From a virus, in IMG/VR virus record IMGVR_UViG_3300021085_003174, positions 1-55,903 of that record: 55,903 bases of DNA; one strand, written 5' to 3'. The notes beneath the pieces are model-generated. The model was not told the DNA's origin and ran no database searches. It worked only from the letters and a program-made list of their open reading frames with translations. Positions 4,143 to 54,536 of the stretch are shown in pieces (the stretch's first letter is position 1; every line of letters starts with the position of its first letter). Both the position numbers and the translations under genes were made by a program.

Positions 4143-6865
4143 AGATTTTCTACAAGTTCTCCGAAGTTACGCATAATAATACCGGCACACGCATTTGCTT
4201 CGTTCTCTATATCACTTCCTGTTTCACCACTATCCACTTCAAGAACTCCAAGTTCATTTTGTTTTTGATGCACCATTTCATGTGCTAAACTTCTACATAC
4301 ATCTGGAAATGCTCTGCCTTTTGTATATATAGAAATCTCATTTGTGTTTGGATCATAACAAGCAGCTGTCATATGCTCATGTCTTTGTGTTAAAAGTTTA
4401 ACCGATACCTTTTCTTTTAATTGCAATGCTTTTCTTGCAAACTTGATAAACTCTTGAACATTGTCTTTGTTCATTGCGACTTCGTTTAATGATTCTTTTG
4501 TATATTTCATATCTGGATGTTTGGTATCTGAATTGTTTTTGGAAATTATTTTATCATTAGAAAAGGATTCCGCAGGAATGTCATTACCAAGATACATTTC
4601 TTTGAATTCCTTAAACCATTGGCCAAAAGTAAAATCACCGATTCTTAATCCATAATCGTGAATGGTTTGTTCTTTAAAGTGATTTGCAACTCCACCTATA
4701 AAGTGATAATAACTTCCACTCTTCTGTACTTTCACATTCGGAAATCCTTTGTCTTTTAACATTTTGGAAACTTGTGCACCAGATTTAGGTGATGACTTCA
4801 TATTGATTTCTTGTATTTTCATTTCGTTTATATTTGCTCCACCTGTTCTGACAATTTCACGAAAGAACCAACGAGTCCACTCTCCGAGTTTGCCTGGTCC
4901 TTTTACTATATATAGTTTAAATGCTTCTGCAAATGCTTCTTCCGGATTTGTATTTCCGTAATTAGTAATATGTTCAATTGGAATTTCTTTACCAGGTCCA
5001 ACCCACCTATCTGCTAATTTTGTTACAACTTCTTTTTTATTTTCTGCTGACCAAACAGATGTCATTTGCAATGCTTTGAACTTTGCTTTGGTCTCGGCGT
5101 TGGTTTCTTTTTTATCAATGACTTTCAATCCTGCTCGTCTTTTATGTATCTTGCTTCCATTCTTATCAAAATACTTTTCTACATAATCCTCTACATCTTT
5201 ACGTTCAATAGATACCTTCTTGCTTTTGATTGTATCTTGCCAATGCTTCTTTGCATTAGATGGAACGTTGCGATACCAAAAACGATGTCCGAGTTCGTGG
5301 GTAAATGTATCTTGAGTCATTCCACATCCGTACAACTTGAGCATATCTTTATTCATATAATACTCACCATTAACCATATCGTTGCTATTATCGGATGTTA
5401 ATCCAAAATCTAAATCAACGGTTAATCCTTCTATACACTTTCCGAATCCTGCTTTTTGAATTTTCTTTGACCAACCTTTAATTCCACTTACTAAATCCTT
5501 GAAACTTTTTTCACGACTTGCTTCTCCTTGAGGACTTCCTCCTTTTCTTTTGAAGTTGTGAATAACCAACTTGACTGGTCCTATTTGTGCTTGCTCAATT
5601 GGTTTTTCTCGTTCTTGGTCACCTTCTATTGCTATGTATTGAAGAAGTGCTTTTATTCCCAAACGGAATTCTGCACGATACCTTCGAATATTTGTTTCTC
5701 GTTCTTTAGCAAGTCTACTTGGACTCACCTTGTGCTTTTTATCTATAAAGTCCCACATCTCTGGAAAGTTTCCACCAAGACCCGTAACTGCTCTCCAGCA
5801 TTTTTCACGAACTTCCTTTTCCTCCCAAGTTTCCATTTTATCACTGGCACCTTGCCATTTGTACTGCAAAAAGAATTTGTAAACCCATTGTTCAAAGTTT
5901 TCTTGGAATGTACCAAATGCTCTTCTTACTTTCTTAAAGTCTTTGATTGTCTGTGGGTCTTCACTATTATCACCAATTGATTTGTATGCTTTAGTAAGAG
6001 CTCTTAAATCCTTTGCCCACTTCTTTACTGAGTTGCTATCAACCTTTACTTTGCTTTCTGAAATGATTTCCGACAGATTACCTTTTTGTATATACATATA
6101 TAAACCTGCTAATCGTTTCTTAAACTTCTTGAGATATTTACTGTTGATATATGTAAGAAAGTCTTTATCAAAAAACTCTACATCAATTGCCCAATCTTGA
6201 AATGATTTGTAACTTTCTAATTTCTTCTTTTTAAAGTCGGCAAGAAATTCCGGACGATGTGCGAACCGATCAGATAGATTTTTCCATACACGAACTATCT
6301 GAGATTGTCCTGCTTGATAATATGCATTAAATTCTTCTGGTGTGTTGTAATATCCTTCTATATCTTGTGTATCTAAGTACTTGGCACTTGTTTTTCCTAA
6401 ACCACGACTACGATACCTCAAATGATCAAGAAAGTGTATATATTCGTGAATGAATGTATCTTTATCAAGACGAGTATCCATATACTTGCCATTGTAATCA
6501 CCAAGTAGATTAGCATTTACAATTACACCTTTAAATGATATTCCACCGACTTTCAAACTTTTGTTTGTGAAACCACCTGCGATTGTTACTCCACCACGTG
6601 ATGAACTTTTTGTTGGAATGAAAAATAATACTACCTCACTTAAAGACGGAAAGTTTTTATCTATGTCTGTTCCTCTAAGAGCAACACCTTTCCATTGTGT
6701 AAGTGGTATAAATGGTTTGTTGACTATACTATTCTCACCTTCACCTTCTAATTTATCTTTATGTTTAGTTAAAAACCGCACCACTTTATCATATGCTTTT
6801 TCGGCAATTCCTGTGTAATACATATCTTGCTCTACATTTGCTTCTTTTATATAGGTGCTATTCAT
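4133..6865 (-). CDS. Large protein with three HExxH metalloprotease-like modules
   Basis: The product is about 910 aa. Counting from a TTG one codon upstream of the chosen ATG (subtract 1 for the ATG), zinc-protease helices occur at HEYIH (141-145), HELGH (524-528) and HEMVH (863-867). Each is followed by a candidate third ligand: TPEEFNAY (about 177-184), NPEEAFAE (641-648) and ENEANA (about 888-893). The first two resemble the gluzincin HExxH...PEE-F/AE pattern; the third is a compact HEMVHQKQ...E-N-E-A type. Linkers are lysine-rich and helical. No signal peptide is seen. ATG at 6865 is preferred over TTG at 6868 because TATATTTAT-type boxes lie just upstream. It is probably a virion or injected protein, or one acting on host or capsid proteins; no substrate is evident. 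Confidence 0.85.
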   Translation of the reverse strand: MNSTYIKEANVEQDMYYTGIAEKAYDKVVRFLTKHKDKLEGEGENSIVNKPFIPLTQWKGVALRGTDIDKNFPSLSEVVLFFIPTKSSSRGGVTIAGGFTNKSLKVGGISFKGVIVNANLLGDYNGKYMDTRLDKDTFIHEYIHFLDHLRYRSRGLGKTSAKYLDTQDIEGYYNTPEEFNAYYQAGQSQIVRVWKNLSDRFAHRPEFLADFKKKKLESYKSFQDWAIDVEFFDKDFLTYINSKYLKKFKKRLAGLYMYIQKGNLSEIISESKVKVDSNSVKKWAKDLRALTKAYKSIGDNSEDPQTIKDFKKVRRAFGTFQENFEQWVYKFFLQYKWQGASDKMETWEEKEVREKCWRAVTGLGGNFPEMWDFIDKKHKVSPSRLAKERETNIRRYRAEFRLGIKALLQYIAIEGDQEREKPIEQAQIGPVKLVIHNFKRKGGSPQGEASREKSFKDLVSGIKGWSKKIQKAGFGKCIEGLTVDLDFGLTSDNSNDMVNGEYYMNKDMLKLYGCGMTQDTFTHELGHRFWYRNVPSNAKKHWQDTIKSKKVSIERKDVEDYVEKYFDKNGSKIHKRRAGLKVIDKKETNAETKAKFKALQMTSVWSAENKKEVVTKLADRWVGPGKEIPIEHITNYGNTNPEEAFAEAFKLYIVKGPGKLGEWTRWFFREIVRTGGANINEMKIQEINMKSSPKSGAQVSKMLKDKGFPNVKVQKSGSYYHFIGGVANHFKEQTIHDYGLRIGDFTFGQWFKEFKEMYLGNDIPAESFSNDKIISKNNSDTKHPDMKYTKESLNEVAMNKDNVQEFIKFARKALQLKEKVSVKLLTQRHEHMTAACYDPNTNEISIYTKGRAFPDVCRSLAHEMVHQKQNELGVLEVDSGETGSDIENEANACAGIIMRNFGELVENLYD

Positions 6866-6870
6866 CAAGT

Positions 6871-10896: not shown

Positions 10897-12327
10897 TTAA
10901 AATGCGAAGAACTCGTTGCTTTTGTTTTTCTCGGAAGGTTGATTCGGAGATTCGGCATCTTCAACTCTTGTTTTGGCAATGATTGCATAATCCTTTTCTT
11001 TTTCTATTCCGATGTATTTTCTATCAAGCATCTTCGCCGCAATACAAGTTGTTCCACTTCCAACAAAAGGATCAACCACAACATCATTCTCACGACTTCC
11101 AAGTGTTATTAAATAACTCATTAGTTCAATGGGTTTAACGGTTGGATGAACATTTTGTTTTTCCGTGACAAATCTACCAGTAACATCGTGGTCGATTTTG
11201 CTATTGCTCATATCTTCTGCATTTCTTCTTCCTGGCATTGAAGAACTTTTCTTTTTAGGAAGATGTTCAAGACCTTTGTTTTTTTCTGCTTTGCTTGCTT
11301 TTGCAACAATCATAAAAGGAAAAGTCTTTTGAACACTTTCAGGCAATTTATGTATTTGTGATTTCCACCAAGAATCCAAATCGTAAAAACGAGAAAATGA
11401 TCCTTCGTCTCCGTAAGTTCTTCCGGCGGGTTTGCCGGTACTTTCTTGCCAAATACCACCAGATGCACTTCCACTATCTGTGTGTTTTCCTTTGCTTCGT
11501 TTTACTCCGTCATTAAGTACATCATCTTGTACAATCAAATTGGCTGCGAATCTTCCGTCTGGTTGTTTATATTCTCCTGCACCACCTCGTTCAAAGCACT
11601 TGGTTTCTTTTTTTCTGTCGGAAGTCCACATATCTTTTCCTTCACGTGGTGTTGGATTTTTTGCATATGCTCCACCATCTAAACTTTCATCTGTTGGAAT
11701 TCTACAATCGTCCAACCAAGTAATTCCTTTGCCATTTTTCATTGCTTGTTCAATGGTGGTTTTTTCTATAATTGGTTTCATTGCAACAAGTACAACTTCT
11801 ACCGCAGGTTTCGGTTGATAACCTACATAAGAACCTTCAAGTGCTTTTGCTTCATCGGATGCAGGTTCAGTTATATCGGGTGTTCTTCTTTCTTGCGTGT
11901 CACTATCCTTCCAATTGTTATATGTAGTTAGTTCTTGGTTGCCTTCGGGAGTTTTGTATTTTCCAATAACTTTTCTTTTTTTACCAAGTTGTTTGTCCAC
12001 CGTCTTTGCCACATTATGTGCTTTTGGAAATCCTGTTGCGTATGTCCAATAAATCGGAGTGAATCCGATATTGAATCCTGCATCTTCTAAACGAACCATC
12101 ATACGACTTTGTACATCTGAACGAGGTGCTGACATAACGAAGCAGAATCCTCCTGGTTTCAAAACTCGTAAACACTCTTGCCAAATTTCTAATGCAGGAA
12201 CTGCTTTGTCCCAATCACGATTCATAAACGAGTATCCATAAGGTGGGTCTGTGCAGACCAAGTCTACCGATTCGTCCTTAAGTTTCTTGAGAACTTTCAA
12301 ACTATCTCCATTTATTATTTTATTCAT
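10897..12327 (-). CDS. Site-specific DNA methyltransferase (beta-type motif order)
   Basis: An amino-methyltransferase of adenine N6 or cytosine N4 type, 476 aa. The catalytic TDPPYGYSF lies near the N terminus (DPPY at 27-30) and the AdoMet-binding VVVDPFVGSGTT near the C terminus, giving the beta-class order. A central insertion of about 250 residues may be the target-recognition region. The ATG at 12327 is chosen over an upstream in-frame start because homology-like sequence begins at NKIINGDSLKVL; it overlaps the preceding gene by 8 bp. No restriction endonuclease is nearby, so it probably protects or marks phage DNA. Confidence 0.92.
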   Translation of the reverse strand: MNKIINGDSLKVLKKLKDESVDLVCTDPPYGYSFMNRDWDKAVPALEIWQECLRVLKPGGFCFVMSAPRSDVQSRMMVRLEDAGFNIGFTPIYWTYATGFPKAHNVAKTVDKQLGKKRKVIGKYKTPEGNQELTTYNNWKDSDTQERRTPDITEPASDEAKALEGSYVGYQPKPAVEVVLVAMKPIIEKTTIEQAMKNGKGITWLDDCRIPTDESLDGGAYAKNPTPREGKDMWTSDRKKETKCFERGGAGEYKQPDGRFAANLIVQDDVLNDGVKRSKGKHTDSGSASGGIWQESTGKPAGRTYGDEGSFSRFYDLDSWWKSQIHKLPESVQKTFPFMIVAKASKAEKNKGLEHLPKKKSSSMPGRRNAEDMSNSKIDHDVTGRFVTEKQNVHPTVKPIELMSYLITLGSRENDVVVDPFVGSGTTCIAAKMLDRKYIGIEKEKDYAIIAKTRVEDAESPNQPSEKNKSNEFFAF

Positions 12328-13216
12328 AACTAAAAAACTTATTTGAGTTAACACGAAGTTCGTCTTGCTCACAATAATCTGGAATTTGATATTCACCTTG
12401 TTTGCGGAAAACCATAATATATTCGTGTATTTTACTTGTGTATCGTTTGCTTGCTACTTTCGCACATTGAACATAAGCAAACGGACTAAGATTCTTCATA
12501 ATAATTGTATCGTGATGAGTCATACCTTCGTTTACAAATGCAGTAATCAAGTCCGAATGAAAACTACGAAGACCACTGCCTGTCATATCTCTCCAATCTG
12601 AAACAACCCATACACAAAATGCTCCTGGTTTCAAAACACGATTTATACTGTGACCACATTTTTTAATTTGTGTCATAAACTCTTCGTATGTTCCACAATC
12701 ACTTAATTGATTTTTCGTACTTTCATACTTTTCAAGATTATGATACGGAGGACAAGTAAACACCAAATCAGCAGTTTCATTTTGTGTGTGAAGCATTTCT
12801 GTTCCATCACAATTAAAAAGTTTAGGGGATACCTTGAACTTTTCAAAATGCTTCATACACCGTGTATATGTTTGTTGTGATACTTCGTAACCTTGATAGT
12901 TGCGACCCAGTTTACAAGCAACCATAGCACGGGTAGCACGACCTGCAAATGGGTCTACGACTACACTTCCACGCATACTCCAATAATTAAGTATTTGTTC
13001 TGCTACACCTGCGTGAAACTCACTAAACCTAAGACCGGGAAGATTCTCTGCATCTTTACTTCGTTTTGTTTCACGGATGCCATCATCAAGATATGCTTCC
13101 GGCCATTGTTCACGATGATCACGACTTGGTTCTAATACACTCAAAGGCAACCAACCGAATTGTTCATCAATTCTACAATCTTTTCTGATTGGAAGTATTT
13201 GATTATAGTTTGCCAT
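12320..13216 (-). CDS. DNA methyltransferase-like protein (permuted, TCPPY)
   Basis: A 298-aa AdoMet-dependent methyltransferase fold with the motif order reversed relative to its neighbour. The AdoMet motif VVVDPFAGRATRAMVA (85-100) comes before the catalytic FTCPPYHNLEKY (153-164), and LKPGAFCVWVVSDW follows. It replaces the usual DPPY with CPPY. Its start overlaps the DNA polymerase stop by one base, and its end overlaps the next methyltransferase, so three genes form one coupled unit. Confidence 0.88.
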   Translation of the reverse strand: MANYNQILPIRKDCRIDEQFGWLPLSVLEPSRDHREQWPEAYLDDGIRETKRSKDAENLPGLRFSEFHAGVAEQILNYWSMRGSVVVDPFAGRATRAMVACKLGRNYQGYEVSQQTYTRCMKHFEKFKVSPKLFNCDGTEMLHTQNETADLVFTCPPYHNLEKYESTKNQLSDCGTYEEFMTQIKKCGHSINRVLKPGAFCVWVVSDWRDMTGSGLRSFHSDLITAFVNEGMTHHDTIIMKNLSPFAYVQCAKVASKRYTSKIHEYIMVFRKQGEYQIPDYCEQDELRVNSNKFFSYE

Positions 13217-15723
13217 TAGAATGCAAAAAACTTTTGTGCAGTCGCAAGATTCTCACTTGCAAAGTCCCAATCGAGAGCATCGTAGAAATCACGCAACTTG
13301 CCTTCAAGTTCTCGTTCAAACAATTTATCTTTGTCTGCGTACTTCTCAATAAACTCCATAAGTTCTGGTGGGTCTTCGTATCCACGAAACGCAAGAGCAT
13401 CTAAACCAAGTTCATTGTTCTTGAGATATATCCACTTGATTTTCTCTCCATTACGAATGGGTTCTGCCTGAATCTTAAACTTCTTGATAAACTGATTATG
13501 AATGATACTTGCTTTAACGTGAGCAGGTGTACTCTTCGCACACTCACCCACAACTGCACCCTTGTCCATCATCTTCAAATACTTGGTTACGTTTTTAACT
13601 GCACTTGTTTTTGCAATGTCTTGAACAGATTCGTTTTTGACTTGTCGTTTAAGGGCAACGATTTTGTCATCAATTTCTTCTTTCGGTGTATCTTTCAAAA
13701 TGTCTTTGAGGATTTCTGTCATAAACGCACGAAATCGTGTAGGAAAACTACTACGAACAACGTCAAGTCCTTTAACTTCCAATTCATCACAACCAACACC
13801 GTTGTTGTTGATAATCCATTGTGCGTATCGTTTCTTTGCCAACCAAATACTTGCTTTGGAAATAACTTCTTGTTTAATGTCATACCGATGTTCTTCAATG
13901 TTAAAGAAACGTTTTGCCATCACATCATAACTTTTATTGATAAAGGTTTGTACATTATCTGCGACTTCAAGAATCGCAGTTGCCATTTCATCGTCATTTT
14001 TTACATCAACATTAGGCATCGTTTTTTCTACGATAGGTAGTGCTGAAAAGAATACCGAGTCGGTATCAATGTAAATACAATGATCTTCGGTATCACCAAG
14101 AGTTTTGTTGTAATAGTGATTTGCAATCTTGCGACTAAACTTAATCACGGACACACCTGTGGTTGTAACTGCTTCTGCATTATCTACATCATAAAAACGA
14201 AAGATGGGTAAACCTAGAACACCATACAAAGAATTAAGAAGAATCTTTTGCACGTGTTGTCTTCTTTTATAAAACACATACTTGGCATCATTACCTGCGT
14301 TACCATATTCCTTCATTTTATTCTTGAACTCAACACGTTGATTAAACCATTGATCAAGAATCGCAGGAATAAGTCCGACCTTTTCTTTTGTATACATTAC
14401 ACCATTGCTACTAATAGCAAGATTGTTTTCCTTCAAAAATGTTTTGAACTCATCTGCTGAATAAGTGTCACCACGAAATCCCACTTCGGTTTGCTCTCCG
14501 TCACAAAACTTCTCAGGACTCCAATTATCAACAACACCCACTTTAGTTTCAGGTGATATATTTGTTGACATAATGATTGATGGATACAGAGATGTCAAAT
14601 CCAAATCAAACACCCACTTGTATTTACCAGGTGTAGGAGCAGCCACATACGCACCACTAAACTTTTTTGATCCATCTCCTTTAATTTCATTGAATTTGTC
14701 ACGACCATCTGGATCTTTGTTTGGTGCAACTAAATTATGTCTACGAAGATAAGTAAGCAACGCACCTTCAAGATAACGAGACGAAAACAATATGTATTCA
14801 TATGGAACGTGACCCACGTGACAAATACTACGAGTTAACTCAATGAGTTCCATCTTTTTGTCAATCTCCACAACAATCTTTACGTCATTCAAATTGTATT
14901 CAATAAACTTCTCAATATCCGAAGAAAACAAATCATCAAGATTACCTTCGTATTCAATTTTTCCGATGCCGACTTCTTTACGACCAATAGCATCCAAACG
15001 ATATGTTGGTTCAACCGAGTATGTAAAGTTTTTGTACAACACAAGATAGTCTAAACAACTTACACCTGCAATCACGATTCGTTTCTTGAACGGATGAAAA
15101 TATGCGTGGCCAATCGGACTCAAACGATTTGCTTCTTCTTGTCCTAATACTCTTGCAAGTCTGCGATACAAATAAGGAACGTCAAATCCATCAATGTTCC
15201 AACCTGTCAATATTGTCGGACTAATCTCTTGATAAAAATCAAGAAAATGAGAAAGTAATGCTCGTTCATTATCATAAGAATAAACTGATACTTCATCATT
15301 AGAGTAATCGGTTATTTTATTCTCTTTATCAAGAATCAACACCACATAATTGTTGGTGCAACTATCGTGCCATGCAATAGCAGTAACAGGATTGTTTGCT
15401 TTTTCTGTATCAGGTAAATCACCTTCCATGCTTACCTCAATATCAAAGTTCATAACGCAATGACCGGTGCTTGGTTCATCATCGTCTTCGTACAAATCAA
15501 TTAGATTACGAGTTTCAATTGGTACATCCGATTCAAATAAACCTGCATCTTCATACCGATATCGTGTTACCTTTTCTAACTTGTCACCATACATACTGCG
15601 ATACATTCCATTAGGAGACTTTTTGTATGCGTATGGTTTATTCTTGAATGTTACGAGACCTTTTTTATCGTCCCACAGATAGACCGTATGATCTTTTTTA
15701 TTTACGAATATGTTTTGATACAT
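13216..15723 (-). CDS. 43: Family B DNA polymerase (T4 gp43-like)
   Basis: The replicative polymerase, 835 aa. The 3'-5' exonuclease motifs are FDIEV (93-97), GWNIDGFD (174-181) and YNLNDV (276-281). The polymerase motifs are DLTSLYPSI (375-383, motif A), KILLNSLYG (493-501, motif B) and YIDTDS (551-556, motif C). All catalytic acidic residues are intact, and no intein or split is seen. It ends in LATAQKFFAF, a short hydrophobic tail of the kind that binds sliding clamps. It heads a coupled unit with two DNA methyltransferases. Confidence 0.97.
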   Translation of the reverse strand: MYQNIFVNKKDHTVYLWDDKKGLVTFKNKPYAYKKSPNGMYRSMYGDKLEKVTRYRYEDAGLFESDVPIETRNLIDLYEDDDEPSTGHCVMNFDIEVSMEGDLPDTEKANNPVTAIAWHDSCTNNYVVLILDKENKITDYSNDEVSVYSYDNERALLSHFLDFYQEISPTILTGWNIDGFDVPYLYRRLARVLGQEEANRLSPIGHAYFHPFKKRIVIAGVSCLDYLVLYKNFTYSVEPTYRLDAIGRKEVGIGKIEYEGNLDDLFSSDIEKFIEYNLNDVKIVVEIDKKMELIELTRSICHVGHVPYEYILFSSRYLEGALLTYLRRHNLVAPNKDPDGRDKFNEIKGDGSKKFSGAYVAAPTPGKYKWVFDLDLTSLYPSIIMSTNISPETKVGVVDNWSPEKFCDGEQTEVGFRGDTYSADEFKTFLKENNLAISSNGVMYTKEKVGLIPAILDQWFNQRVEFKNKMKEYGNAGNDAKYVFYKRRQHVQKILLNSLYGVLGLPIFRFYDVDNAEAVTTTGVSVIKFSRKIANHYYNKTLGDTEDHCIYIDTDSVFFSALPIVEKTMPNVDVKNDDEMATAILEVADNVQTFINKSYDVMAKRFFNIEEHRYDIKQEVISKASIWLAKKRYAQWIINNNGVGCDELEVKGLDVVRSSFPTRFRAFMTEILKDILKDTPKEEIDDKIVALKRQVKNESVQDIAKTSAVKNVTKYLKMMDKGAVVGECAKSTPAHVKASIIHNQFIKKFKIQAEPIRNGEKIKWIYLKNNELGLDALAFRGYEDPPELMEFIEKYADKDKLFERELEGKLRDFYDALDWDFASENLATAQKFFAF

Positions 15724-17997: not shown

Positions 17998-19215
17998 TCA
18001 ATTCTTTTTCCATATCCAGATGGGTTCTGCGAATGCTACATTTTTTGTTTCTTCGGTAATTTCTTTGAGGTCTTCCGAGAAATATTCACTTTTTGCATTA
18101 CCTGCTCCACCTGAGTTGAATCGTTTCGTCATTTCCATTCCGATGCAACCTTGGTATTGCAGTCCACATGATTTAATAAAGTCGTTCATTGGATTGGTGA
18201 TTTCTACATAGTCGTTGATAGGAGCATTAAATACATCTGCGATATTGACTGCGAGAATTCCACCTGACTTTAATGTGGGAATAAGTTTCTGAATAGTTGC
18301 GTGTAAAAAGTTAACATTCCAATCATCTATCTTTTTATATCGTACCCACGATTGAGTGTCATCTTCTGAATATTTCTCTGTATTAAAATAAGGTGGACTT
18401 GTAAAAATGGTATCAAAAAAGTTTTCGTATTTAGAATAGTCTACATCCTCCGCAGGACTATCAATCAACTCAACTTCCCTATTCTGTTCAAAGAAGGTTG
18501 AGTATTTTTTGTAGAACTCAACTTGCTTTTTGTAATTGGGGTGGTTGTTGCTATTGGGGTCAATGCCCACATAATGTTTGGTAGTTTCACCTGTGTAGAA
18601 TCCTGCCAACCTATCTCCCCAACCTGCACTAAAGTCTAACACGTTCTTGCTTTGAAAGTGATCGTAAAATGCTTTTGCTACTGCCGGTTTGAATTGTGAT
18701 GCGACATACTTACGAAGAGTCGTAGCAACACGGAGAGTATTAACATCAACACGATTGAGAACTTTATCTAATGTCCAATAAGCACGAACGATTGTTTTGA
18801 TTCCTTTGACTGTTTGCCAAGTTTTCCAACCACTTGGTGTTCGTGTCCAATCTACTTTCCAACGATTTTCCACATGAAACGGATTGGAAGCATTGTTACC
18901 CGAGTTGTTTCTTTTTAACAGAAACTGAGAATCGTTGTAGTTCAAATGATAGTTGCTTTTTCTTTCGTTGCGAGGAAACCACCGTTTTTCAACGAGAACA
19001 TCGTTGTGCTTGATTCCTTTTAATTTGTTTAAACTATCAAGAGTTTGTTTATCTGTAATCTCTGGTAACGGAGCAGGATAGGTGTGCAATACTTTTGCCA
19101 ACTCTTCCACGACATCTTCTTTTTCATATTTTTGCATGATGTCTTTCCACTCATCTTCTTCAATGAGAAGATATGGTTTCATATCGTAAAACTTTTTAAA
19201 ATGCTCTTTTAGCAT
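17998..19215 (-). CDS. DNA methyltransferase-like protein (SAGWG/TSPPYFN family), copy 1
   Basis: A 405-aa protein with an AdoMet-binding motif NVLDFSAGWGDRLAGF, an acidic VGIDPNSNNH, then the catalytic-type FTSPPYFNTEKYSEDD and a strand motif LKSGGILAVNIAD. The N-terminal half is basic and may recognise DNA. It shares SAGWG-x-R and TSPPYFN-x-E-x-YS-x-D with the gene at 28638, making the two paralogues. ATG at 19215 is preferred over an in-frame TTG at 19233: it lies one base past the previous stop. Confidence 0.85.
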   Translation of the reverse strand: MLKEHFKKFYDMKPYLLIEEDEWKDIMQKYEKEDVVEELAKVLHTYPAPLPEITDKQTLDSLNKLKGIKHNDVLVEKRWFPRNERKSNYHLNYNDSQFLLKRNNSGNNASNPFHVENRWKVDWTRTPSGWKTWQTVKGIKTIVRAYWTLDKVLNRVDVNTLRVATTLRKYVASQFKPAVAKAFYDHFQSKNVLDFSAGWGDRLAGFYTGETTKHYVGIDPNSNNHPNYKKQVEFYKKYSTFFEQNREVELIDSPAEDVDYSKYENFFDTIFTSPPYFNTEKYSEDDTQSWVRYKKIDDWNVNFLHATIQKLIPTLKSGGILAVNIADVFNAPINDYVEITNPMNDFIKSCGLQYQGCIGMEMTKRFNSGGAGNAKSEYFSEDLKEITEETKNVAFAEPIWIWKKN

Positions 19216-19216
19216 T

Positions 19217-19942
19217 TTAATTTTTTGACTCAACCTGGTAATTGTCTGGAAGATTACCTCGTTCTGCGTCTCGTTTTGCTCTATGTGATTTTATATGCTC
19301 AAGAACTTTCGGATCAACAATTTTAGTCTCATTCTGACTACCATCTGCCTCTTTTACAATTTTATTAACAGGTTGAAGTCCATGTTCTAAGTCTATTGAT
19401 GACGCAGAGTTTTCGGTGGTTTGCTTTGTGTCGGAGTATCTTGTTTGTGTGGGTGGCATACTTGCCTCGGTTATTTTTTCTGGATTGATCTGTAAATCAG
19501 ATGTCGTTGCAATATTTTCTACTGTATCGTGAATATCACTATATTTTTTTTGAGAATAAACCTCATTGTCTATTGTAATATTCTTTTTTGTTTCTGTGTT
19601 TATGGTGCGTTTGTCAGTCACCTTAATCAAAGACTCAATTTCTTCTTCAGTAACTTTTTCAACTGGATTTTCAGTTGTAGTTGCTTCTGTTGTAGTTAAA
19701 TCTACAGTCCTAAATTCAGTATCTGATTCAGTTTCTTCTGTTGATTTAATCTTATTTCTAAGATGGTTCTCAAAAACTGATAGTAACCCCGATACAGGTT
19801 TTTTATCAAATGACTCTTCATATTTATCTTTTTCTTGTAAAGAATCTACTGACATTTCCTGTGCTGGATCAACTTTTTTATTTTTTTCTGAGAATCCTTT
19901 TGCTACTTTTTTAAACTTTTCGTCTATATTATCTAATGACAT
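19217..19942 (-). CDS. Acidic, low-complexity protein of unknown function (241 aa)
   Basis: Rich in Glu, Asp, Lys, Thr and Ser with few aromatic residues, so probably largely disordered (for example ATTTENPVEKVTEEEIESL). No domain is recognised. A good SD (AAGGAG, 8 nt before the ATG) precedes it. The methyltransferase-like gene follows within 1 nt. It could be a scaffold-like or DNA-mimic protein; this is speculation. Confidence 0.7.
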   Translation of the reverse strand: MSLDNIDEKFKKVAKGFSEKNKKVDPAQEMSVDSLQEKDKYEESFDKKPVSGLLSVFENHLRNKIKSTEETESDTEFRTVDLTTTEATTTENPVEKVTEEEIESLIKVTDKRTINTETKKNITIDNEVYSQKKYSDIHDTVENIATTSDLQINPEKITEASMPPTQTRYSDTKQTTENSASSIDLEHGLQPVNKIVKEADGSQNETKIVDPKVLEHIKSHRAKRDAERGNLPDNYQVESKN

Positions 19943-23844: not shown

Positions 23845-25398
23845 ATGACTAAACTTAAGTGTACAAAAAAATCATGCTTGTATCCAGAAACGTGTGACTG
23901 GAACAATATGTGCATGATGGAACAACTTGAAATAAGTAATTCCGCAAGACTAAGTGAAACCTCAATTGATAAGATTGGGGTTCTTTTGTGTCATGGATTC
24001 CTGTCCAAACATGAACAAATGGTACCGTTGAGCAATTATATATACGAAACCCTTGGTTGGGAAACTAGTTTAGTTGAATTAACTGGACACGGATATGATC
24101 AAGAAAATATTGCAACTGCAACTTGGAATAATTGGGTTGATGATGTAAAAGAAAAGTATTTAAGTTTGCGTAAACGATGCGATAAAGTTTATATGATTGG
24201 ATTTTCTTTGGGTGGTTGTATATCTGCATATGTTGCAAGTTTAAAAAGCATACGACCAGAAGGATTGATTGTTGTAAATGGTGTGTTTGGTGTTAAGAAT
24301 GTTTTCAACAAACTTCTTCCTGGTGTAATGATCTACAACAAAGTATGCAGTAAATTGAAACTTCAAAAAATTATGTTGGAATCTATAACTAATGACAGTG
24401 AAGATCCTGATTTGAATCAACCTCTTGTGAATTTGTCGGCAACAAACGAATTGCGTAAAATGTCTAAAATAGCAGGTACTATATTACAAGATGTTAAATG
24501 TCCTACCTTTTTGATTCAAGAATACAACGATCCAACTGTATTTTATGGAAGTGGAAAACGAGCATTCAAAAAACTCGGTGCTACTTTCAAACGATTTTAT
24601 ACAACTAAACTAAATACTCATCTTACAATACATGACAAGGGAATGGAATGTAGTGTGTTTTGTAAAATATTGGAATTTCTAAAAGATGTAGAAAAGGACG
24701 ATTTCGTTAATATTGCTCATCGTGGAGCAAGTGGTGACTTTACTGAAAACACCTTGCAGGCATTTGAAGAAGCAATTGATCGTGGGTGTAATGCAATAGA
24801 ATTTGATGTACAATCAATAGGAAATCGTTTTAGAATTTTTCACGATACAAACTTTAAGAGAATGTTTGGGCTTGATTTAAAAACCAACGAAGCATCTGAA
24901 TTAGATGTAAGTAAACTAACTTACACCAATCTTGAAAAACTTCCTACCTTACAAGAAGCACTTGATTGTATAAATGGTCGTGTTGACGTTAACATTGAAA
25001 TCAAAAGTAATCAAGTTGCTGTAAACATTGCTAATATAGCAGAATCATATTTAGAAAAACCAGAGTGGAAAAACAAAAGCATTACTTTATCGTGTTTTAG
25101 TTTTGCTACTGTAAACACACTGTATAGATTCCGAAAAAAAGCACAACTTTCATATTTGTTGTACGATCAGTATTGTAATTTAGAAGAAATCAAACGACTT
25201 AAAGATGATTACATTAAATATAATATTCATTCTTTGAATCTTCCACTTGAAAGTATTTCCAAGCAAATCATTGAATATTGCAACGACAACAACATTAGAA
25301 TATATGTATATACCGTAAATGAAATCAAACAAATTCGTTATTTACGAGAGTTGGGTGTTAATGGTGTATTTACCGACTTTCCTAAATTGATACGATAA
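23845..25398 (+). CDS. Fusion: alpha/beta-hydrolase (lipase/esterase-like) plus glycerophosphodiester phosphodiesterase
   Basis: This 517-aa protein joins two enzymes. Residues about 43-285 are an alpha/beta hydrolase: LLCHGF (oxyanion region), TGHGYD, the nucleophile elbow GFSLGG (S121), with a likely acid D229 in QEYNDPTV and base H259 or H263. Residues about 287-517 are a GDPD TIM barrel: NIAHRGASGDFTENT (H292, R293), IEFDVQ (E319, D321), FHDTNFKR (H333) and VNIEIKS. Together they could deacylate a lipid and then cleave the glycerophosphodiester. An early Cys-rich patch (CTKKSCLYPETCDWNNMC) is distinctive. A variant box (TATATATTGGA) lies directly before the ATG. Confidence 0.92.
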   Translation: MTKLKCTKKSCLYPETCDWNNMCMMEQLEISNSARLSETSIDKIGVLLCHGFLSKHEQMVPLSNYIYETLGWETSLVELTGHGYDQENIATATWNNWVDDVKEKYLSLRKRCDKVYMIGFSLGGCISAYVASLKSIRPEGLIVVNGVFGVKNVFNKLLPGVMIYNKVCSKLKLQKIMLESITNDSEDPDLNQPLVNLSATNELRKMSKIAGTILQDVKCPTFLIQEYNDPTVFYGSGKRAFKKLGATFKRFYTTKLNTHLTIHDKGMECSVFCKILEFLKDVEKDDFVNIAHRGASGDFTENTLQAFEEAIDRGCNAIEFDVQSIGNRFRIFHDTNFKRMFGLDLKTNEASELDVSKLTYTNLEKLPTLQEALDCINGRVDVNIEIKSNQVAVNIANIAESYLEKPEWKNKSITLSCFSFATVNTLYRFRKKAQLSYLLYDQYCNLEEIKRLKDDYIKYNIHSLNLPLESISKQIIEYCNDNNIRIYVYTVNEIKQIRYLRELGVNGVFTDFPKLIR

Positions 25399-28637: not shown

Positions 28638-30227
28638 TTACTTCTTGTAAAACACAAAGATAGGTTCGTACTTTTGCAACTCTCCGTTTATCTTGCAACA
28701 ATTCTTAACCGTTTCTGCTTTAACGCCACGCATTGTTGTCATAAGCATTTTAAGAGTTTCAACATACTCAAGTCCGTATTCCGCAAGAATATCACGACTA
28801 TCTTTTTCTAATGGCATAAATCCATCTCCATCTGCAATGTCTGCGATATTCCAAAGCAAGTATCTATCGTTCTTTAAATACTCGGCAGCCGTCTTTAAAG
28901 TAGGACGAAGAAAGTTGTCTCTCCAATCTGCATACTCTGGAAACTTTTTGAAACTCTGAGATTCATCTGCTGAATATTGTTCACGATTAAAATATGGTGG
29001 ACTTGTAAAAACCAAATCAAGTTTGCCTTTGTATTTTTGGAAACTTGGATTGTTGGAAATTTCCTCACTTCCGTCTTGGTAAACATCATAAGTGTTACGG
29101 TGGCCAAAGAACGGATTACCTCCGTTTGTTTTATCATTAAAAAAGTCGGCAAGATATTCATAACGACTTTTACCAAGTTCATCAATATAGTTGTCGGTGT
29201 TTGGATCAGTTCCGATATAATGAATCTGTCTATCGTGTACTGACATAGCACCAAGAATACGACCACCCCAACCTGCACTTGGATCATATATATGAAGATT
29301 GCTTTTATCTTCAACATGGTCTGTATACTTCTGATATATGTACTTTGCAGTCAACGGAGGAAAGTTAACCGCAGGTTGACTCAACCCCAACTTGAATGCT
29401 TCCATTGCTGATGGAAATATTCTTGAGTTCTTGTTGTAGTAACGAATACTAAAACGAAATTCTACTTCTTTTTCGTCTTCTATAATTACATCATTTATAT
29501 TTTCTATATCATCACCGAAGTTTGCAGTTCTTTCTAAATTTCTGATGTTGTTTATTTCAAGCAAACCTTCTTTGTGTAATTTCTTTATTTGCTTTGCAGT
29601 AAGCATCAAACTACTTTCTTCATATGAATCAAACTTCTTTTCGGTAAACAACTCAATAATCCAAAAGTCATTGTGTGGGTGAAGGTGTTTTTCTTTGACA
29701 AAGTTACGAACCCACTCTTCTGCGTTTTCGGTTGGGCATGGAACGTCATAATCATTTTTCTTGATTGTTCTTCCATGAGCATAAAACGAATCTCTTCGTA
29801 CCGTTCTTCTCATACAGGTGTGAAAACTTTCTCGTTTCTCTGGATTAGCAAAGCAATCGTAAACACTCCAAGATGTATGCTTACTTGAACCTATTTTAGT
29901 TTTAAGCATTGTTGGAAAAAACTGATCAACTACGGTTGCGAACTTGTTAAAGTTTTTGACGATGGTATTTGTTCCGTCCATTTCGTCTTTGTGCTGAAAC
30001 TTATATACATTGTATCCTGATAACTTATTTAAATTTGCTATGATGTCTTTTTCGTTTTTACCTGTTCTTGGTGGAAGACCCTCATTGTCCCAAGTGTCTA
30101 CAATATAAGTTCTAAGTTCATCAATCCACTCGGTTAACTCTGCACCATTCTTTTGTAATAGTTCGTGGAATGTAATATTAACCTTACACTCTGTTAAATT
30201 ATTCTTTTCGTAAAAGTATTTTTTCAT
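28638..30227 (-). CDS. DNA methyltransferase-like protein (SAGWG/TSPPYFN family), copy 2
   Basis: A 529-aa protein. The C-terminal half holds the AdoMet motif IYDPSAGWGGRILGAM, IGTDPNTDN, the catalytic-type FTSPPYFNREQYSADESQ and YLLWNIADI. The N-terminal ~280 residues are specific to this copy and may recognise DNA or another substrate. The family matches the gene at 17998. ATG at 30227 is chosen: it overlaps the PLP-enzyme stop as ATGA, and an upstream in-frame start has no support. Its stop (TAA) abuts the convergent gene's stop. Confidence 0.85.
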   Translation of the reverse strand: MKKYFYEKNNLTECKVNITFHELLQKNGAELTEWIDELRTYIVDTWDNEGLPPRTGKNEKDIIANLNKLSGYNVYKFQHKDEMDGTNTIVKNFNKFATVVDQFFPTMLKTKIGSSKHTSWSVYDCFANPEKRESFHTCMRRTVRRDSFYAHGRTIKKNDYDVPCPTENAEEWVRNFVKEKHLHPHNDFWIIELFTEKKFDSYEESSLMLTAKQIKKLHKEGLLEINNIRNLERTANFGDDIENINDVIIEDEKEVEFRFSIRYYNKNSRIFPSAMEAFKLGLSQPAVNFPPLTAKYIYQKYTDHVEDKSNLHIYDPSAGWGGRILGAMSVHDRQIHYIGTDPNTDNYIDELGKSRYEYLADFFNDKTNGGNPFFGHRNTYDVYQDGSEEISNNPSFQKYKGKLDLVFTSPPYFNREQYSADESQSFKKFPEYADWRDNFLRPTLKTAAEYLKNDRYLLWNIADIADGDGFMPLEKDSRDILAEYGLEYVETLKMLMTTMRGVKAETVKNCCKINGELQKYEPIFVFYKK

Positions 30228-31153
30228 TGTCTCCAAAAGTGTGATGCACAAGCACCACCAAGATTATAGAATAGTACATCTCCGTCTAATTTGCAACCAT
30301 TTTCTTTTAACCAATCCCATGCTTTTTTGTCCCAATTACCATTACAAGGAAATGGAGTATATACTTGATCCAGATCATCTGCAAACTCATGTGGGGTTTC
30401 GTGGATTTCGGTTACGTGGTTATGCTTTCCGTTTTTTGCATAGAATACACCCCACGATGTTAACTTAGTTTCAATGGAAGACTCTGATGCAGTTGTTATG
30501 AGATGTGCTTTCTTTATGTCACTTTGATGTAATTGAAACTGTCTTTCTCCGAAAAAACCCTGAAGTAGTCCCGATGGTGTTACTCCACTACCTGCATTTA
30601 CAACAAGGTGTTTAATGTTTTTGTCTGAGTTCTCTTCGAGTAGAGTTTGCATTCGTGTTTTGAAATAATCTACATAATCTGGATGATCAAACGCATATGG
30701 CATCATTTGATATCCGTTTTTGTTTGCAAGAATATTAACCGAACTTGTTACTATACTAAGAATGTTTGGTTTCATTGGGACCAACTCTGCCCCAAGACTT
30801 TCTATTTTTTCAAGTGCTTTTTTAGGATAGTCTTTCGTATTAGGGTATGCAATCTTAATATCAAATCCAAGTTCACGACCCATATATGCCAATGCCCAAC
30901 CACTATAACTTACAGCAACTGACAAATGGATTATAGGTTTGTTTCTTGTAAGTTTTTCAACCGAGTATGTCTGATTCTTGTTATTGTCATCAGTAAATGC
31001 CCCATCACTTTCAAGGACTCTACGAATGCCTTCTAACTTTGCCCACGGTGGTAAATCTAAATTTCCGTTTAGCAAATCGTCACGTTTTACGTAAACTTTT
31101 TTTTCTCCACATAAATGTTCTTCGAGTGGAGTATCAAAATTAAAGGAGAGCAT
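30224..31153 (-). CDS. PLP-dependent enzyme, fold type II (cysteate/ACC-deaminase-like)
   Basis: A 309-aa protein of the tryptophan-synthase-beta fold. KRDDLLNGNLDLPPWAKLEG contains the likely PLP lysine K39. HLSVAVSYSGWALAYMGREL resembles the ring-stacking substrate segment. The phosphate-binding loop is GSGVTPSG (188-195). Closest by eye to ACC deaminase and D-cysteine desulfhydrase, so it would act on an amino acid or amino-acid adduct. It is coupled at both ends: 14-bp overlap with the oxygenase gene and ATGA overlap with the methyltransferase gene. Confidence 0.85.
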   Translation of the reverse strand: MLSFNFDTPLEEHLCGEKKVYVKRDDLLNGNLDLPPWAKLEGIRRVLESDGAFTDDNNKNQTYSVEKLTRNKPIIHLSVAVSYSGWALAYMGRELGFDIKIAYPNTKDYPKKALEKIESLGAELVPMKPNILSIVTSSVNILANKNGYQMMPYAFDHPDYVDYFKTRMQTLLEENSDKNIKHLVVNAGSGVTPSGLLQGFFGERQFQLHQSDIKKAHLITTASESSIETKLTSWGVFYAKNGKHNHVTEIHETPHEFADDLDQVYTPFPCNGNWDKKAWDWLKENGCKLDGDVLFYNLGGACASHFWRQ

Positions 31154-32345
31154 CTAAGTGTTTTTGTTCACATTCAATATCCATTATTACATGGAAACGA
31201 TAATTCTCTGAGTTGTTTACAACCCAATGAGGTTTTCTTTTATCCATATAATAATATTCTCCCGTTTTCAAACGAAAGTCTTCTGTTTCACCATCAAGTC
31301 CGACTTGAGTGAATATACATTCTTCGTCAACTTGAATGGGAAAGTGAATTCTTAACGAACGACCAAGTTTTGGTCCATTCTTTGTTTGGTAATCCCAACT
31401 ATCGTGACCAATATCGGTATGTCTTTGAATAACTCCGTTTTTTGGTTCTACTCTGGTGATAACCAACCAAGTGCATTTATCAACTGATGTAATTTCGTTT
31501 ACTACCTTTGCTAGTTTAGGAATCTTTTCAAGAATAGTATAATCAACTTCACTATTAGGATTAATCGGTACAACTTCAACCGTGTACCAAGTCTTTTCGG
31601 GTCCTCCATAGTTTCCATTGATTCCATCGTAACTCCAGGGATTAACTGCTTCTTTGTAATCTTTAATTTCTTGAACAAGTTCTGCACATTCTTTTTTGTT
31701 GATAGAACTCAACTTCATTTTCTGAATCTTAATATCTTCATACTTTGAAACACCTGGTTGTTTCAACTCACCACTATACCAAATACCACGAACCTCAGAA
31801 CCAACCGCAGTTACTTTACTGCTTAACCAAGTTGCTTTTATTGCTTTGCAAAAATCTTTATCTTGTTTCAGTTCCATATTAACATCTGTTAAAAACAAAT
31901 CGCACTTGGTATCAAACAAATCATTTTCTAATGTTCGTTTACTTTCAATATCTGCTATTAAGTCTTCTAGGTGTCCATCAACATAAGCGAATCTTGTTAT
32001 CTGTAAATCACCGGTCTTGATTGTTCCTACTACATCTTCTGCTACATCTTTTATTCCACGATTAGATTTACATTCTGAACAAATATATGCCCACAAAAGT
32101 TTGCCATAAAATGTTTTATGAAAGAATCTACCTTTTTGATCTGCTTCATATAAATTCTTCCAGTTTATTTTTTTGAATGGATCAAGGTTTGGTTCTTTGC
32201 AGGCAATGGGTTGATTTTTCCATTGTGGTGGAACATCATACTCTTGGAAGAATTTTGCGTACTCTTTATACTTGTCTTTTATTTCATCTGAAATTTCGTC
32301 TTTGACTTTTACTTTTTTTGTTTTCTTTTCTTTTACTGAAACCAT
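31140..32345 (-). CDS. Fe(II)/2-oxoglutarate oxygenase-like protein (Asp/Asn beta-hydroxylase type) with unknown N-terminal domain
   Basis: The C-terminal ~110 residues (about 290-395) match the aspartyl/asparaginyl beta-hydroxylase cupin: RHTDIGHD (H309, D311), [28 protein letters not shown] (H373) and a YRFHVIMD strand with R383 for 2-oxoglutarate. The first 280 residues are not recognised and include a CSEC pair (89-92). It would hydroxylate a peptide, nucleobase or small molecule. It overlaps both neighbouring genes by 13-14 bp, so it is part of a tightly coupled four-gene cassette. Confidence 0.82.
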
Positions 32346-33142
32346 TTGTTTTCTTGCCTTTCTAAAATTGCATTATTCACTTTATTTTCTAAACAATTCT
32401 CTATAATTTTTTTTAAGTTTTCGTGATCGTTTTTTTCTCCAAGGAAATCCCACGATGTGTGGTTGTAATAAAATGCTTTGTTTGTTTGTAGTAATTCTTC
32501 ACGTAAATCTGTTCCTAGTGTATCTATATGTGCAGTTGCTATATTACCACCGTTTATTAAAGATAGCAAGGCTGCATTGTCGTGGCAATCTGATCTAGAT
32601 ATTGATACAAAGTTTATGTTTCTACAATTTTCAAATAATTTTTCATTGAACATATTTTTTGTGGAATCATTTAATGATACGGTTGCAATGACATTCTTTA
32701 TATTAGATGATGACATAATCTGTTGAATCGTTGTTTCATCTGTTTTTGAATCAACAACAGAAATAAAATGTTCAACGATACCTTGAACTTTTTTAGAAAT
32801 GACACCATTACCAAATATAACACAATCACCATCTACAAGTTTATCTTTGATCCAATAAGCACATCCGTTTGTATTTGGACTAGTTGCAACTACACCTATA
32901 TTGTGTTTTTTGCACAACTTTAAGTTTACTGAATCTACTCCGTGGCCACGATGAACCACCCACTCAAGGTTTGGATACCGATCAAGTGTAGTTTTTCCTA
33001 CTTTACTGAACTTAGTTGAGATAACCTTAATTTCATTTGAAGGAATTCCGTCTGCTTTTTGCATTGCACCCAGAATGTGGGCATTGGGAATAAACTTCTC
33101 TATATCAGCAAGATCGGATTTATCTTTTATTAAGGTATTCAT
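32333..33142 (-). CDS. D-2-hydroxyacid dehydrogenase-like protein, apparently reduced
   Basis: A 269-aa protein resembling phosphoglycerate-dehydrogenase-type enzymes: [33 protein letters not shown], a degenerate nucleotide loop [35 protein letters not shown] and [13 protein letters not shown]. It is shorter than the usual 310-400. The glycine loop and the catalytic R-E-H set are poorly conserved, so it may be catalytically changed or non-enzymatic. It is first in the four-gene cassette. The upstream region has a TATAGT-like -10 but no convincing -35. Confidence 0.75.
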
Positions 33143-33197: not shown

Positions 33198-34844
33198 TTA
33201 TGCTAACTCGGTAACTTTGATTCTCGCAGATACGTGACCAAGATTTCTATTTAAATATTCCGTTGGAACTTTGTTTTCAATGAACAACTCGTTAAAGTAT
33301 TGATCAATAGTATCTTGTTCTTTTTTAAGATAATCTGTATGACATCCTTGTTGAAATGTTTTTTTGGGTCTCCAGAGCAACTCATCTGAAATTTCTCCTT
33401 CAAATGCTTTTCGCAAAACATATTTCATTATGTTTCCTTTACCATCTGCTTCATCTCTGTATCTGGTTGGAATTCTTAAACCAAAATCAATAACTTCTTT
33501 ATTAAGAAAAGGAGTTCTTAGTTCTACCTTACCACCATACATCATTGCTTTGTTGGTTCTAATAAGATTATTTTTGTGAAGGTTGTTTATGAGGTTAACT
33601 CGTTTTTGATGCCAAGCAAGTGGATCAGGCCAACAAAATCTTTTGACATCTCCATAACTAGCAAATATTTCATCTGCTCCTTCTCCACCAAATACGACTT
33701 TATATCCTTTGTCTCGGATTTCCCAAGATAGAAATAATTGAGCAACTGCGGGTGATACTTGTGTCCATTTGTGAGTTTCTGATGCCCATATACTTTCTTT
33801 TAGATTATTCTGAATATCTTCCTTACTTACATTAACTTCGTGCAATCTAACACCCAATTCTTTTGATGCTATTTTAGCATAATACAAATCATCTTTCAAA
33901 GTTTGCTTACGATTAGATGTTACATTTACAACAAATGCTTCAATGTTTGGATTTTTCTTTTTAAGTAAATAAGTAATAATAGTGCTATCTATACCACCAC
34001 TCAAAATTGTACAAATCGGAGTATCACTTATTAGTTCATCATCAACTGCTTGTTCCAACCGTTTTCTAAATTCGGATGCGTAGTAATCAATTCCTTTATC
34101 TTCTTTCTCAAATAATTTTAAGTCTGTTTCTGATCGTGTATATAAAGTTGGATTCTCTGGATTAAACTCTGGTTTGAAATCGTTCCATCTTTTAATCTCA
34201 CAATTTGTTACTCCGATTAAATTTTCGGAAACCGTTACAATTGTTCCAGGTTCTACTACTTTTATTTTTTCTTCTTCACCGTCTGGTGCTTTGCGATTTC
34301 TATCAACATTGAAAAATTTAAGGTTTGGTGTTGCTGATTGCAATCCTTTAACTTCACTTGAAAAAACAATCTTTTCATTTTCAAATGCATAATACAATGG
34401 AAGTCTTCCGATAAAGTCTCTTCCTAATGTTAACTGATTTCGGTCTACATCATAAAAAGCAAAACAAAACATTCCATCAAGATTTTTCATTGCTTCTAAA
34501 ATATTATCACGATTATCTATTAAGTAATACAACAACAACTCCGAATCACTTCTTTCAGTCTTGAAATTGTATTTCTTTCTAAGTTTGTTGTTAAACTTTC
34601 TGAAAAATGGTTTCCACATTTCTCCGTTGAATGCCAGCACAAATTTTTCATTCTCTGAAATAAGTGGTTGATTTGCTGACTCTGATAAATCTTGTATAGA
34701 CAACCTATTATGACTCATATAAAAATCGTTCTTCTCAAAATGAAATATAACATTGCCATCTGTTCCACGATGCATAATTGATGCAAGACCATTCTTGACT
34801 TCTTGAATATCGTTAAAATTATTTCCGCCTAATATACCGCACAT
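33198..34844 (-). CDS. asnB: Asparagine synthetase-like amidotransferase (AsnB)
   Basis: A 548-aa glutamine-hydrolysing enzyme. The N-terminal glutaminase has the catalytic Cys2 (MCGILGG), IMHRGTDG and FNGEMW. The C-terminal ATP-pyrophosphatase has the P-loop SGGIDS (282-287), FGGEGADEIFASY and RTPFLNKEVIDFG. It would transfer an amide nitrogen to aspartate or, as in O-antigen clusters, to a sugar carboxylate. It lies between the PLP/oxygenase cassette and nucleotide-sugar genes, so either use is possible. Confidence 0.95.
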   Translation of the reverse strand: MCGILGGNNFNDIQEVKNGLASIMHRGTDGNVIFHFEKNDFYMSHNRLSIQDLSESANQPLISENEKFVLAFNGEMWKPFFRKFNNKLRKKYNFKTERSDSELLLYYLIDNRDNILEAMKNLDGMFCFAFYDVDRNQLTLGRDFIGRLPLYYAFENEKIVFSSEVKGLQSATPNLKFFNVDRNRKAPDGEEEKIKVVEPGTIVTVSENLIGVTNCEIKRWNDFKPEFNPENPTLYTRSETDLKLFEKEDKGIDYYASEFRKRLEQAVDDELISDTPICTILSGGIDSTIITYLLKKKNPNIEAFVVNVTSNRKQTLKDDLYYAKIASKELGVRLHEVNVSKEDIQNNLKESIWASETHKWTQVSPAVAQLFLSWEIRDKGYKVVFGGEGADEIFASYGDVKRFCWPDPLAWHQKRVNLINNLHKNNLIRTNKAMMYGGKVELRTPFLNKEVIDFGLRIPTRYRDEADGKGNIMKYVLRKAFEGEISDELLWRPKKTFQQGCHTDYLKKEQDTIDQYFNELFIENKVPTEYLNRNLGHVSARIKVTELA

Positions 34845-54038: not shown

Positions 54039-54536
54039 ATGAAAAACTACGGATTAAATAAGTCCTACGGAACAGGACTAAATAAACACGTTCCAACTAT
54101 GCGAGACGAGTTTTTAACTCCATTTGACTCCATATTTGACAAAATGGTTAACCAGGCATTTCCAAATTTCGGCCAAGAGTTTGGTGTAAATTTCTTTGGA
54201 AATAGTTCATATCCACGGGTAAATGTAGCAGATACCAAAACCGAAGTAAGAATTGAAGCAGAAATAGCCGGACTAGGAAAGGATGATGTGTCAGTTGAAT
54301 ATGAAGATGGTATGCTCACTATCGCAGGAGACAAAAAGACTGAAATTGAAGATCCTGATGTAAAGTATGTGTATCGTGAACTTAAACGATCTTCTTTCAA
54401 ACGGTCATTTAAAGTAGACGAATCAGTCCTTCAGGTCGGCAAAATTACAGCCAAGTTTGACAATGGAATATTAAATGTAACCATACCGAAAAAAGAAGTC
54501 ACGGAAACTAAGTCAAAAAAAGTAAAGATAATGTAA
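54039..54536 (+). CDS. Small heat-shock protein (Hsp20/IbpA family)
   Basis: A 165-aa ATP-independent chaperone. The N-terminal phenylalanine-rich region is followed by an alpha-crystallin domain: YPRVNVADTKTEVRIEAEIA, VSVEYEDGMLTIAGDKK and a SSFKRSFKVDES-like strand, ending DNGILNVTIPKKE. Common in marine T4-like phages. A strong terminator follows. Confidence 0.95.
   Translation: MKNYGLNKSYGTGLNKHVPTMRDEFLTPFDSIFDKMVNQAFPNFGQEFGVNFFGNSSYPRVNVADTKTEVRIEAEIAGLGKDDVSVEYEDGMLTIAGDKKTEIEDPDVKYVYRELKRSSFKRSFKVDESVLQVGKITAKFDNGILNVTIPKKEVTETKSKKVKIM

Follow-up and report, generated by a model that had tools for sequence, protein, structure and literature searches.

Analysis of the 55.9 kb virus record IMGVR_UViG_3300021085_003174 (55,903 nucleotides, hereafter the window) revealed a module of tightly linked minus-strand genes that probably directs hypermodification of phage DNA bases. 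To judge from sequence comparison, its products would place an amino-acid-like substituent on the exocyclic amine of a base, with a protective role. The evidence comprises the identity of the genes and their intact catalytic motifs, their repeated co-localisation and overlap in other phage contigs, swapping of cassettes, a replication context, a fusion of pyridoxal phosphate (PLP) enzyme and methyltransferase, and homology of the PLP enzyme to a member of a DNA-hypermodification cluster. We found no description of this gene set in the open-access library searched. The five genes of the window are as follows:

28638..30227, minus strand: MT, a DNA amino-methyltransferase-like protein with AGWGGR motif I, TSPPY motif IV and an N-terminal domain of ~280 residues
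30224..31153, minus strand: PLP, a fold-type II PLP enzyme of the phrog_7093 family with Lys39 and GSGVT
31140..32345, minus strand: OX, an Fe(II)/2-oxoglutarate oxygenase (PF05118, Asp/Asn hydroxylase-like) whose N-terminal domain is specific to the family
32333..33142, minus strand: DH, a short D-2-hydroxyacid dehydrogenase-like protein in which R183 and H228 are kept
33198..34844, minus strand: ASNB, an asparagine-synthetase-like amidoligase with a Gln-hydrolysing domain (Cys after the start Met) and the PP-loop SGGIDS

The original prediction, made from the nucleotide sequence, described a cassette of four overlapping minus-strand genes at 28638-33142, and all four open reading frames (ORFs) are present there. 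Their overlaps of 13 bp (DH/OX), 14 bp (OX/PLP) and 4 bp (PLP/MT) were borne out with the MT start at ATG 30227. ORF finding by itself puts this start at TTG 30251; the PLP/MT overlap is ATGA because the conserved start, with GGAG in front, is ATG 30227. The cassette ORFs encode 269-537 aa, compared with a longest open frame of 187 aa in 200 Markov shuffles of the region. The predicted enzyme families likewise held, with Pfam matches above cut-off for DH (PF00389/PF02826), OX (PF05118) and PLP (PF00291). These four genes do form one unit, but the set is wider than proposed: ASNB, overlooked at first, lies 55 bp upstream of DH and is an equally tightly linked fifth gene, and the cassette is modular.

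The link of the module to DNA is well supported by sequence comparisons, above all those of PLP. The enzyme has the PLP lysine and glycine-rich phosphate loop of fold type II; among its relatives, K39 does not vary and the GSGVT loop is almost unchanged. Its homology to phage M6 gp52 covers the whole protein (29%, E 8e-21; hhalign profile E 3.8e-27), and the gene product adjoining gp52, gp51, is an amino acid:DNA transferase by Pfam. An M6-like thymidine-modification cassette that includes a PLP enzyme has been reported for phage SN1 (PMC9476957). In the Erythrobacter phages ZS04 and R6L, a PLP relative interrupts the chain of an N4/N6 amino-methyltransferase, with motif I DPFAGG before it and motif IV SCPPY after it; in the 812 aa ZS04 fusion, DPFAGG lies near residue 340, the PLP domain spans about 395-640 and SCPPY lies near 660. 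The fusion protein is annotated as a DNA methyltransferase, and its N-terminal stretch appears ParB-like from a reading of the sequence and of the annotation of Microcystis phage Mae-JY30. We propose that PLP works hand in hand with MT. Genes of the module also occur with those for ribonucleotide reductase (RNR), dUTPase, family-B DNA polymerase (PolB), clamp (phrog_223) and clamp loader. This replication-gene link, the homology to M6 gp52 and the fusion make DNA hypermodification, as originally suggested, the best reading.

By motifs and fold, MT is a predicted DNA amino-methyltransferase of the SPPY type, for which methyl transfer to a DNA base would be expected. Its GWGGR and TSPPY motifs are kept in 25/25 relatives, and it has a class I fold. 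Its top viral fold matches are N4-cytosine-specific DNA methylases; the AlphaFold model is usable (pLDDT 77.5), and its matches in the PDB are generic class I folds. A tandem duplication of MT, with copies 70% identical, was seen in some sister phages (L016:8001-11188).

Relatives of the module were collected with OX, MT, PLP and DH queries, and gene content was scored by hidden Markov models. Two further features of the window recur in these comparisons:

13216..15723, minus strand: DNA polymerase B, context only in the window; it adjoins the module in many related phages
17998..19233, minus strand: MT4, a second SPPY amino-methyltransferase-like protein related to MT, with orthologues within the module of other phages

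The search for the same gene set elsewhere, which had been proposed as a check, recovered the same order in sister contigs and reshuffled orders in divergent lineages. The arrangement ASNB-DH-OX-PLP-MT is shared by the window and its sisters. Elsewhere, the genes are arranged as MT-ASNB-..-DH-OX-PLP (contigs L009 and L120), PolB-MT4-PLP-DH-ASNB-OX (L006 and L007), ASNB-DH-PLP-MT4-OX-PolB-clamp-MT-clamp loader (L013), clamp loader-MT4-PLP-DH-MT-ASNB-..-OX (the L214 group) and DH-OX-PLP-..-MT4-MT4 (L204). A further arrangement begins with a gene like that of thymidylate synthase (TS) and reads TS-like-ASNB-PLP-MT4-PolB-clamp-MT (L128 and L151, and L139 with extra genes). Adjacency in so many orders and lineages supports the proposal that the genes act as one functional unit.

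Counts across the contigs agree with this picture. Overlap was observed in 202/236 adjacent pairs of module genes, compared with 304/777 other same-strand pairs. Of 41 non-identical PLP loci flanked by 3 kb or more to the left and right, MT or MT4 was present in 36, ASNB in 28, DH in 28, OX in 19 and PolB in 16, and OX never occurred without DH; these loci are partly related, so that the counts are not fully independent, and those for DH are inflated because some loci were fetched with the DH query. The reshuffled orders in divergent lineages carry more weight than the locus counts. All 13 ASNB-bearing contigs (13/13) also carry PLP, and one of two PLP types is present in 13/14 MT-bearing contigs of at least 70 kb. 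Viral contigs of aquatic origin commonly carry the module; no isolate phage with all genes of the cassette turned up in the phage collection searched.

The genes ahead of MT are exchanged between close relatives. In three sisters whose MT is 94-97% identical (L017, L020 and L022), the interval between the epimerase gene and MT contains, in place of the ASNB-DH-OX-PLP block, a different PF05118 oxygenase (22% identical), a protein of 156 aa and another phrog_7093 PLP enzyme. L024 has epimerase and MT with nothing between, and L023 looks alike; ahead of MT in L057 lies a third combination of oxygenase and PLP-like protein, with DUF7831. Given this swapping and the 13/14 co-occurrence, we consider MT and PLP a near-constant pair around which the tailoring genes vary.

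Several further genes accompany the module in particular carriers. Divergent TS-like proteins of 228-236 aa, in which the Cys of the PC motif is retained and the substrate motif altered, are encoded in many carriers directly before ASNB or a 308-aa stand-in (L139:5796-6494, L158:5820-6506 and L132:1547-2257). The stand-in is a PP-loop AsnB-like protein that replaces ASNB (L132:2254-3180 and L126:7075-8001); it gave no full match to the Gln-hydrolysing domain and may therefore use another amine. A protein of the S-adenosylmethionine (SAM) lyase family (PF23780) is encoded near PLP, between dUTPase and methyltransferase/polymerase genes (L066:3367-3996 and L036:2214-2861), an odd gene for phages with several SAM-dependent methyltransferases. 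A GmrSD_N/HNH-like protein, possibly a modification-dependent nuclease, lies between ASNB and OX at L225:6574-8022.

The three remaining enzymes keep key catalytic residues. The predicted Fe/2-oxoglutarate H-x-D...H...R site of OX (H309, D311, H373 and R383) was confirmed as invariant in 20/20 relatives with identity down to about 22%; its invariance in such divergent relatives indicates constraint on the enzymatic function of OX. Fold matches of OX, obtained with a model of low confidence (mean pLDDT 58), include AspH and Cpz10 (7v4m; TM-score 0.61 on the target). The N-terminal domain is common to distant OX relatives; we found no known relative of this domain, and a genome scan for a cellular source of OX found none. 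In DH, R183 and H228 are invariant and the GxG loop of the NAD Rossmann fold is kept; the catalytic Glu usual in such enzymes could not be recognised. In the ASNB alignment, the Cys of the glutaminase, SGGxDS of the PP-loop and GEGxDE are all invariant. The closest solved relative of ASNB is E. coli AsnB (1ct9); for PLP, OX, MT and the TS-like protein, the search for close solved relatives by sequence gave none that was convincing. The E. coli AsnB stretch VTTIR corresponds to WTQVS in the window, such that the aspartate-site motif T-T-I-R is changed to T-Q-V-S. We take Thr322, Thr323 and Arg325 to be the residues that serve aspartate in the E. coli enzyme. Because this motif is altered, the substrate of ASNB is probably other than aspartate, and plain asparagine synthesis was rejected as its likely role.

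Precedents for such chemistry come from the tailoring of nucleoside antibiotics. In the muraymycin and caprazamycin pathways, the PLP enzymes Mur24 and Cpz13 transfer the aminocarboxypropyl group of SAM to a nucleoside amine, the PLP enzyme Mur23 decarboxylates it, and Cpz10 hydroxylates an amino-acid side chain on the nucleoside (PMC9814697, PMC10491745). These pathways share with the module PLP chemistry and a PF05118-like hydroxylase acting on a nucleoside-attached amino acid. They differ in that their substrates are small-molecule nucleosides, their PLP enzymes belong to other subfamilies and they include no DNA methyltransferase; the likeness is therefore one of logic only.

We infer from these comparisons that DNA is the substrate of the module, and likewise the base, atom, donor, product, order of steps and protective role that follow. 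MT, like the related MT4, would flip a base out of the DNA and alkylate or methylate its exocyclic nitrogen; the target is most likely cytosine, probably at N4. PLP may supply or reshape an amino-acid-like substituent on the base, by analogy with M6 gp52, Mur24/Cpz13 and Mur23. ASNB would turn a carboxylate of the substituent into an amide, taking the nitrogen from glutamine. DH would tailor the substituent by keto/hydroxy-acid redox, and OX would hydroxylate one of its carbons, much as Cpz10 hydroxylates an amino acid bound to a nucleoside. A single amino-acid-like substituent would suit all four enzymes: PLP requires an amine or an amino acid, and ASNB a carboxylate, whereas the substrate of DH is an alpha-keto or hydroxy acid and that of a PF05118 oxygenase often an amino-acid-like carbon. 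Phage DNA modified in this way would be protected against host nucleases or bacterial defences, and swapping of tailoring genes around a constant MT could allow quick change of the product. The original prediction left the target as a base, peptide or sugar; a base is now favoured, and sugar is weakened by the occurrence of the module without sugar genes in other lineages. Its order of hydroxylation, conjugation or rearrangement, then methylation is not supported by the data.

A more specific version, which we regard as speculative and rather unlikely, is that PLP and the SPPY transferase together put the 3-amino-3-carboxypropyl group of SAM, instead of methyl, on an exocyclic base amine, in analogy to Mur24 on a nucleoside amine. 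ASNB would then form the carboxamide, and DH and OX would oxidise and hydroxylate the chain. DNA would bear an alpha-amino-acid side chain on N4-cytosine or N6-adenine, which to our knowledge is known in no DNA. Two observations are compatible with this version without proving it: OX has a Cpz10-like fold, and some carriers have SAM-lyase-family genes close to PLP.

We compared the module with known routes of DNA modification. The M6-type cluster, present in Pseudomonas phage M6 and relatives, comprises a TS-type hydroxymethylase, a kinase, the amino acid:DNA transferase PF18724, a radical SAM protein (rSAM) and the PLP enzyme gp52. It has in common with the module a PLP enzyme homologous over its full length, replication genes nearby and amino-acid chemistry; unlike it, the module adds an SPPY amino-methyltransferase, an AsnB-like ligase, DH and a PF05118 oxygenase. 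PF18724 was above cut-off in 0/40 records, and the M6-type amino acid:DNA transferase route was rejected for this reason. No thymidylate synthase was found in the window, itself a fragment, or in the sister contigs searched; more distant carriers have the divergent TS-like genes.

The CmoA-CmoX-CmoY system of Synechococcus phage S-B43 makes 5-carboxymethylcytosine and its glycine amide, and its AsnB-like ligase CmoY is proven to form an amide on a DNA base (PMC12783734). Both this system and the module pair a DNA base alkyltransferase with an asparagine-synthetase-like amide ligase, and one CmoY cluster, like ASNB, has a Gln-hydrolysing domain. In the module, however, the transferase is of the SPPY amino type, and PLP, DH and OX are additional. 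The Cx-SAM synthase CmoA was detected in 0/21 contigs, and a C5-cytosine methyltransferase fold (SPPC) in 1/21, in that case outside the cassette; the CmoA/Cx-SAM route was rejected on these grounds. N6- or N4-carboxymethyltransferases associated with CmoA were sought by the authors of that study and were not found (PMC12783734). The Erythrobacter fusion shares with the module a PLP relative and an SCPPY amino-methyltransferase; it differs in being a single protein, and no ASNB, DH or OX was seen adjoining it.

Besides the limits on the locus counts, several observations weigh against a hypermodification module. The match of MT to PF01555 falls below the Pfam cut-off; no PLP enzyme was found to accompany MT in L023, L024 and G016 (115 kb); no PLP gene is annotated next to related methylases of Staphylococcus, Vibrio and Bacteroides phages; and OX is solitary, without other module genes, in L011:7995-9161 and L012:6803-7969. 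Upstream of the cassette, the window operon also extends into sugar genes: those for sugar nucleotides, namely an epimerase and a UDP-glucose dehydrogenase-like protein, and those for glycosyltransferases. Since MT relatives occur without partners in other phages, plain methylation by MT is possible: MT and MT4 would be ordinary N4-cytosine or N6-adenine methylases, and PLP, ASNB, DH and OX co-transcribed genes of auxiliary amino-acid metabolism. One of the partnerless relatives, which occur in several isolated phages, is annotated as an N4-cytosine methylase, and all four partner families have metabolic members. We nevertheless consider this explanation unlikely, given the loss of the aspartate-site motif in ASNB, the relationship of PLP to M6 gp52 and its fusion to a methyltransferase in other phages, and the joint inheritance and reshuffling of the gene set.

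Modification might instead take place on nucleotides before replication, giving a modified dNTP, with the methyltransferases acting separately. A TS-like gene directly before ASNB in many relatives, and dUTPase and RNR nearby, would suit this scheme; the window and its sister contigs have no such TS-like gene, and the PLP-methyltransferase fusion with its ParB-like front speaks for action on DNA, so we hold it to be improbable. A pathway that modifies RNA or protein, or makes a small peptide-like molecule, could draw on PF05118 oxygenases, whose substrates include proteins as well as amino acids, free or bound, and on the AsnB-like and PLP enzymes of natural-product clusters. We consider it improbable: the partners in the module are DNA amino-methyltransferases and replication genes, and we saw neither a carrier protein or peptide precursor nor an RNA-binding domain. 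Finally, the adjoining sugar genes would be explained if the cassette tailored a cell-surface or virion glycan, with ASNB amidating a uronic acid. In most other lineages, though, the module lies by polymerase, clamp and RNR genes, and sister phages keep the sugar genes while the module is swapped or absent. As it travels elsewhere without sugar genes, the module is not simply part of a sugar operon, and a role in glycan tailoring is very improbable.

Few routes to hypermodified phage DNA are known, namely those through hydroxymethyl pyrimidines, carboxymethylcytosine, deazaguanines and Mom-type adenine. If hypermodification by the module is correct, an amino-group transferase combined with a PLP enzyme, an amidoligase and an oxygenase would open a new chemical route to such DNA, and a function could be assigned to proteins that are at present annotated as threonine dehydratase, asparagine synthetase or auxiliary metabolic genes. 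The hypothesis is directly testable because the fused version exists in cultivated Erythrobacter phages.

The window as a whole has a GC content of about 34%, carries six tRNAs and encodes HSP70, PhoH, a clamp-loader-like ATPase and dUTPase in addition to PolB, the best isolate match of which is Microcystis phage Mel-JY01 (46.9%). Two more N6_N4_Mtase genes (10897-12396 and 12320-13216) adjoin PolB, such that the virus encodes at least four amino-methyltransferase-like proteins. Phage-borne chaperone genes are present at 33-1916 (HSP70, starting at the window edge) and 54039-54536 (HSP20). A 911-aa protein at 4133-6868 has a weak Reprolysin-like metallopeptidase match as its sole match, and the gene at 23845-25398 combines alpha/beta hydrolase and glycerophosphodiester phosphodiesterase domains in one protein.

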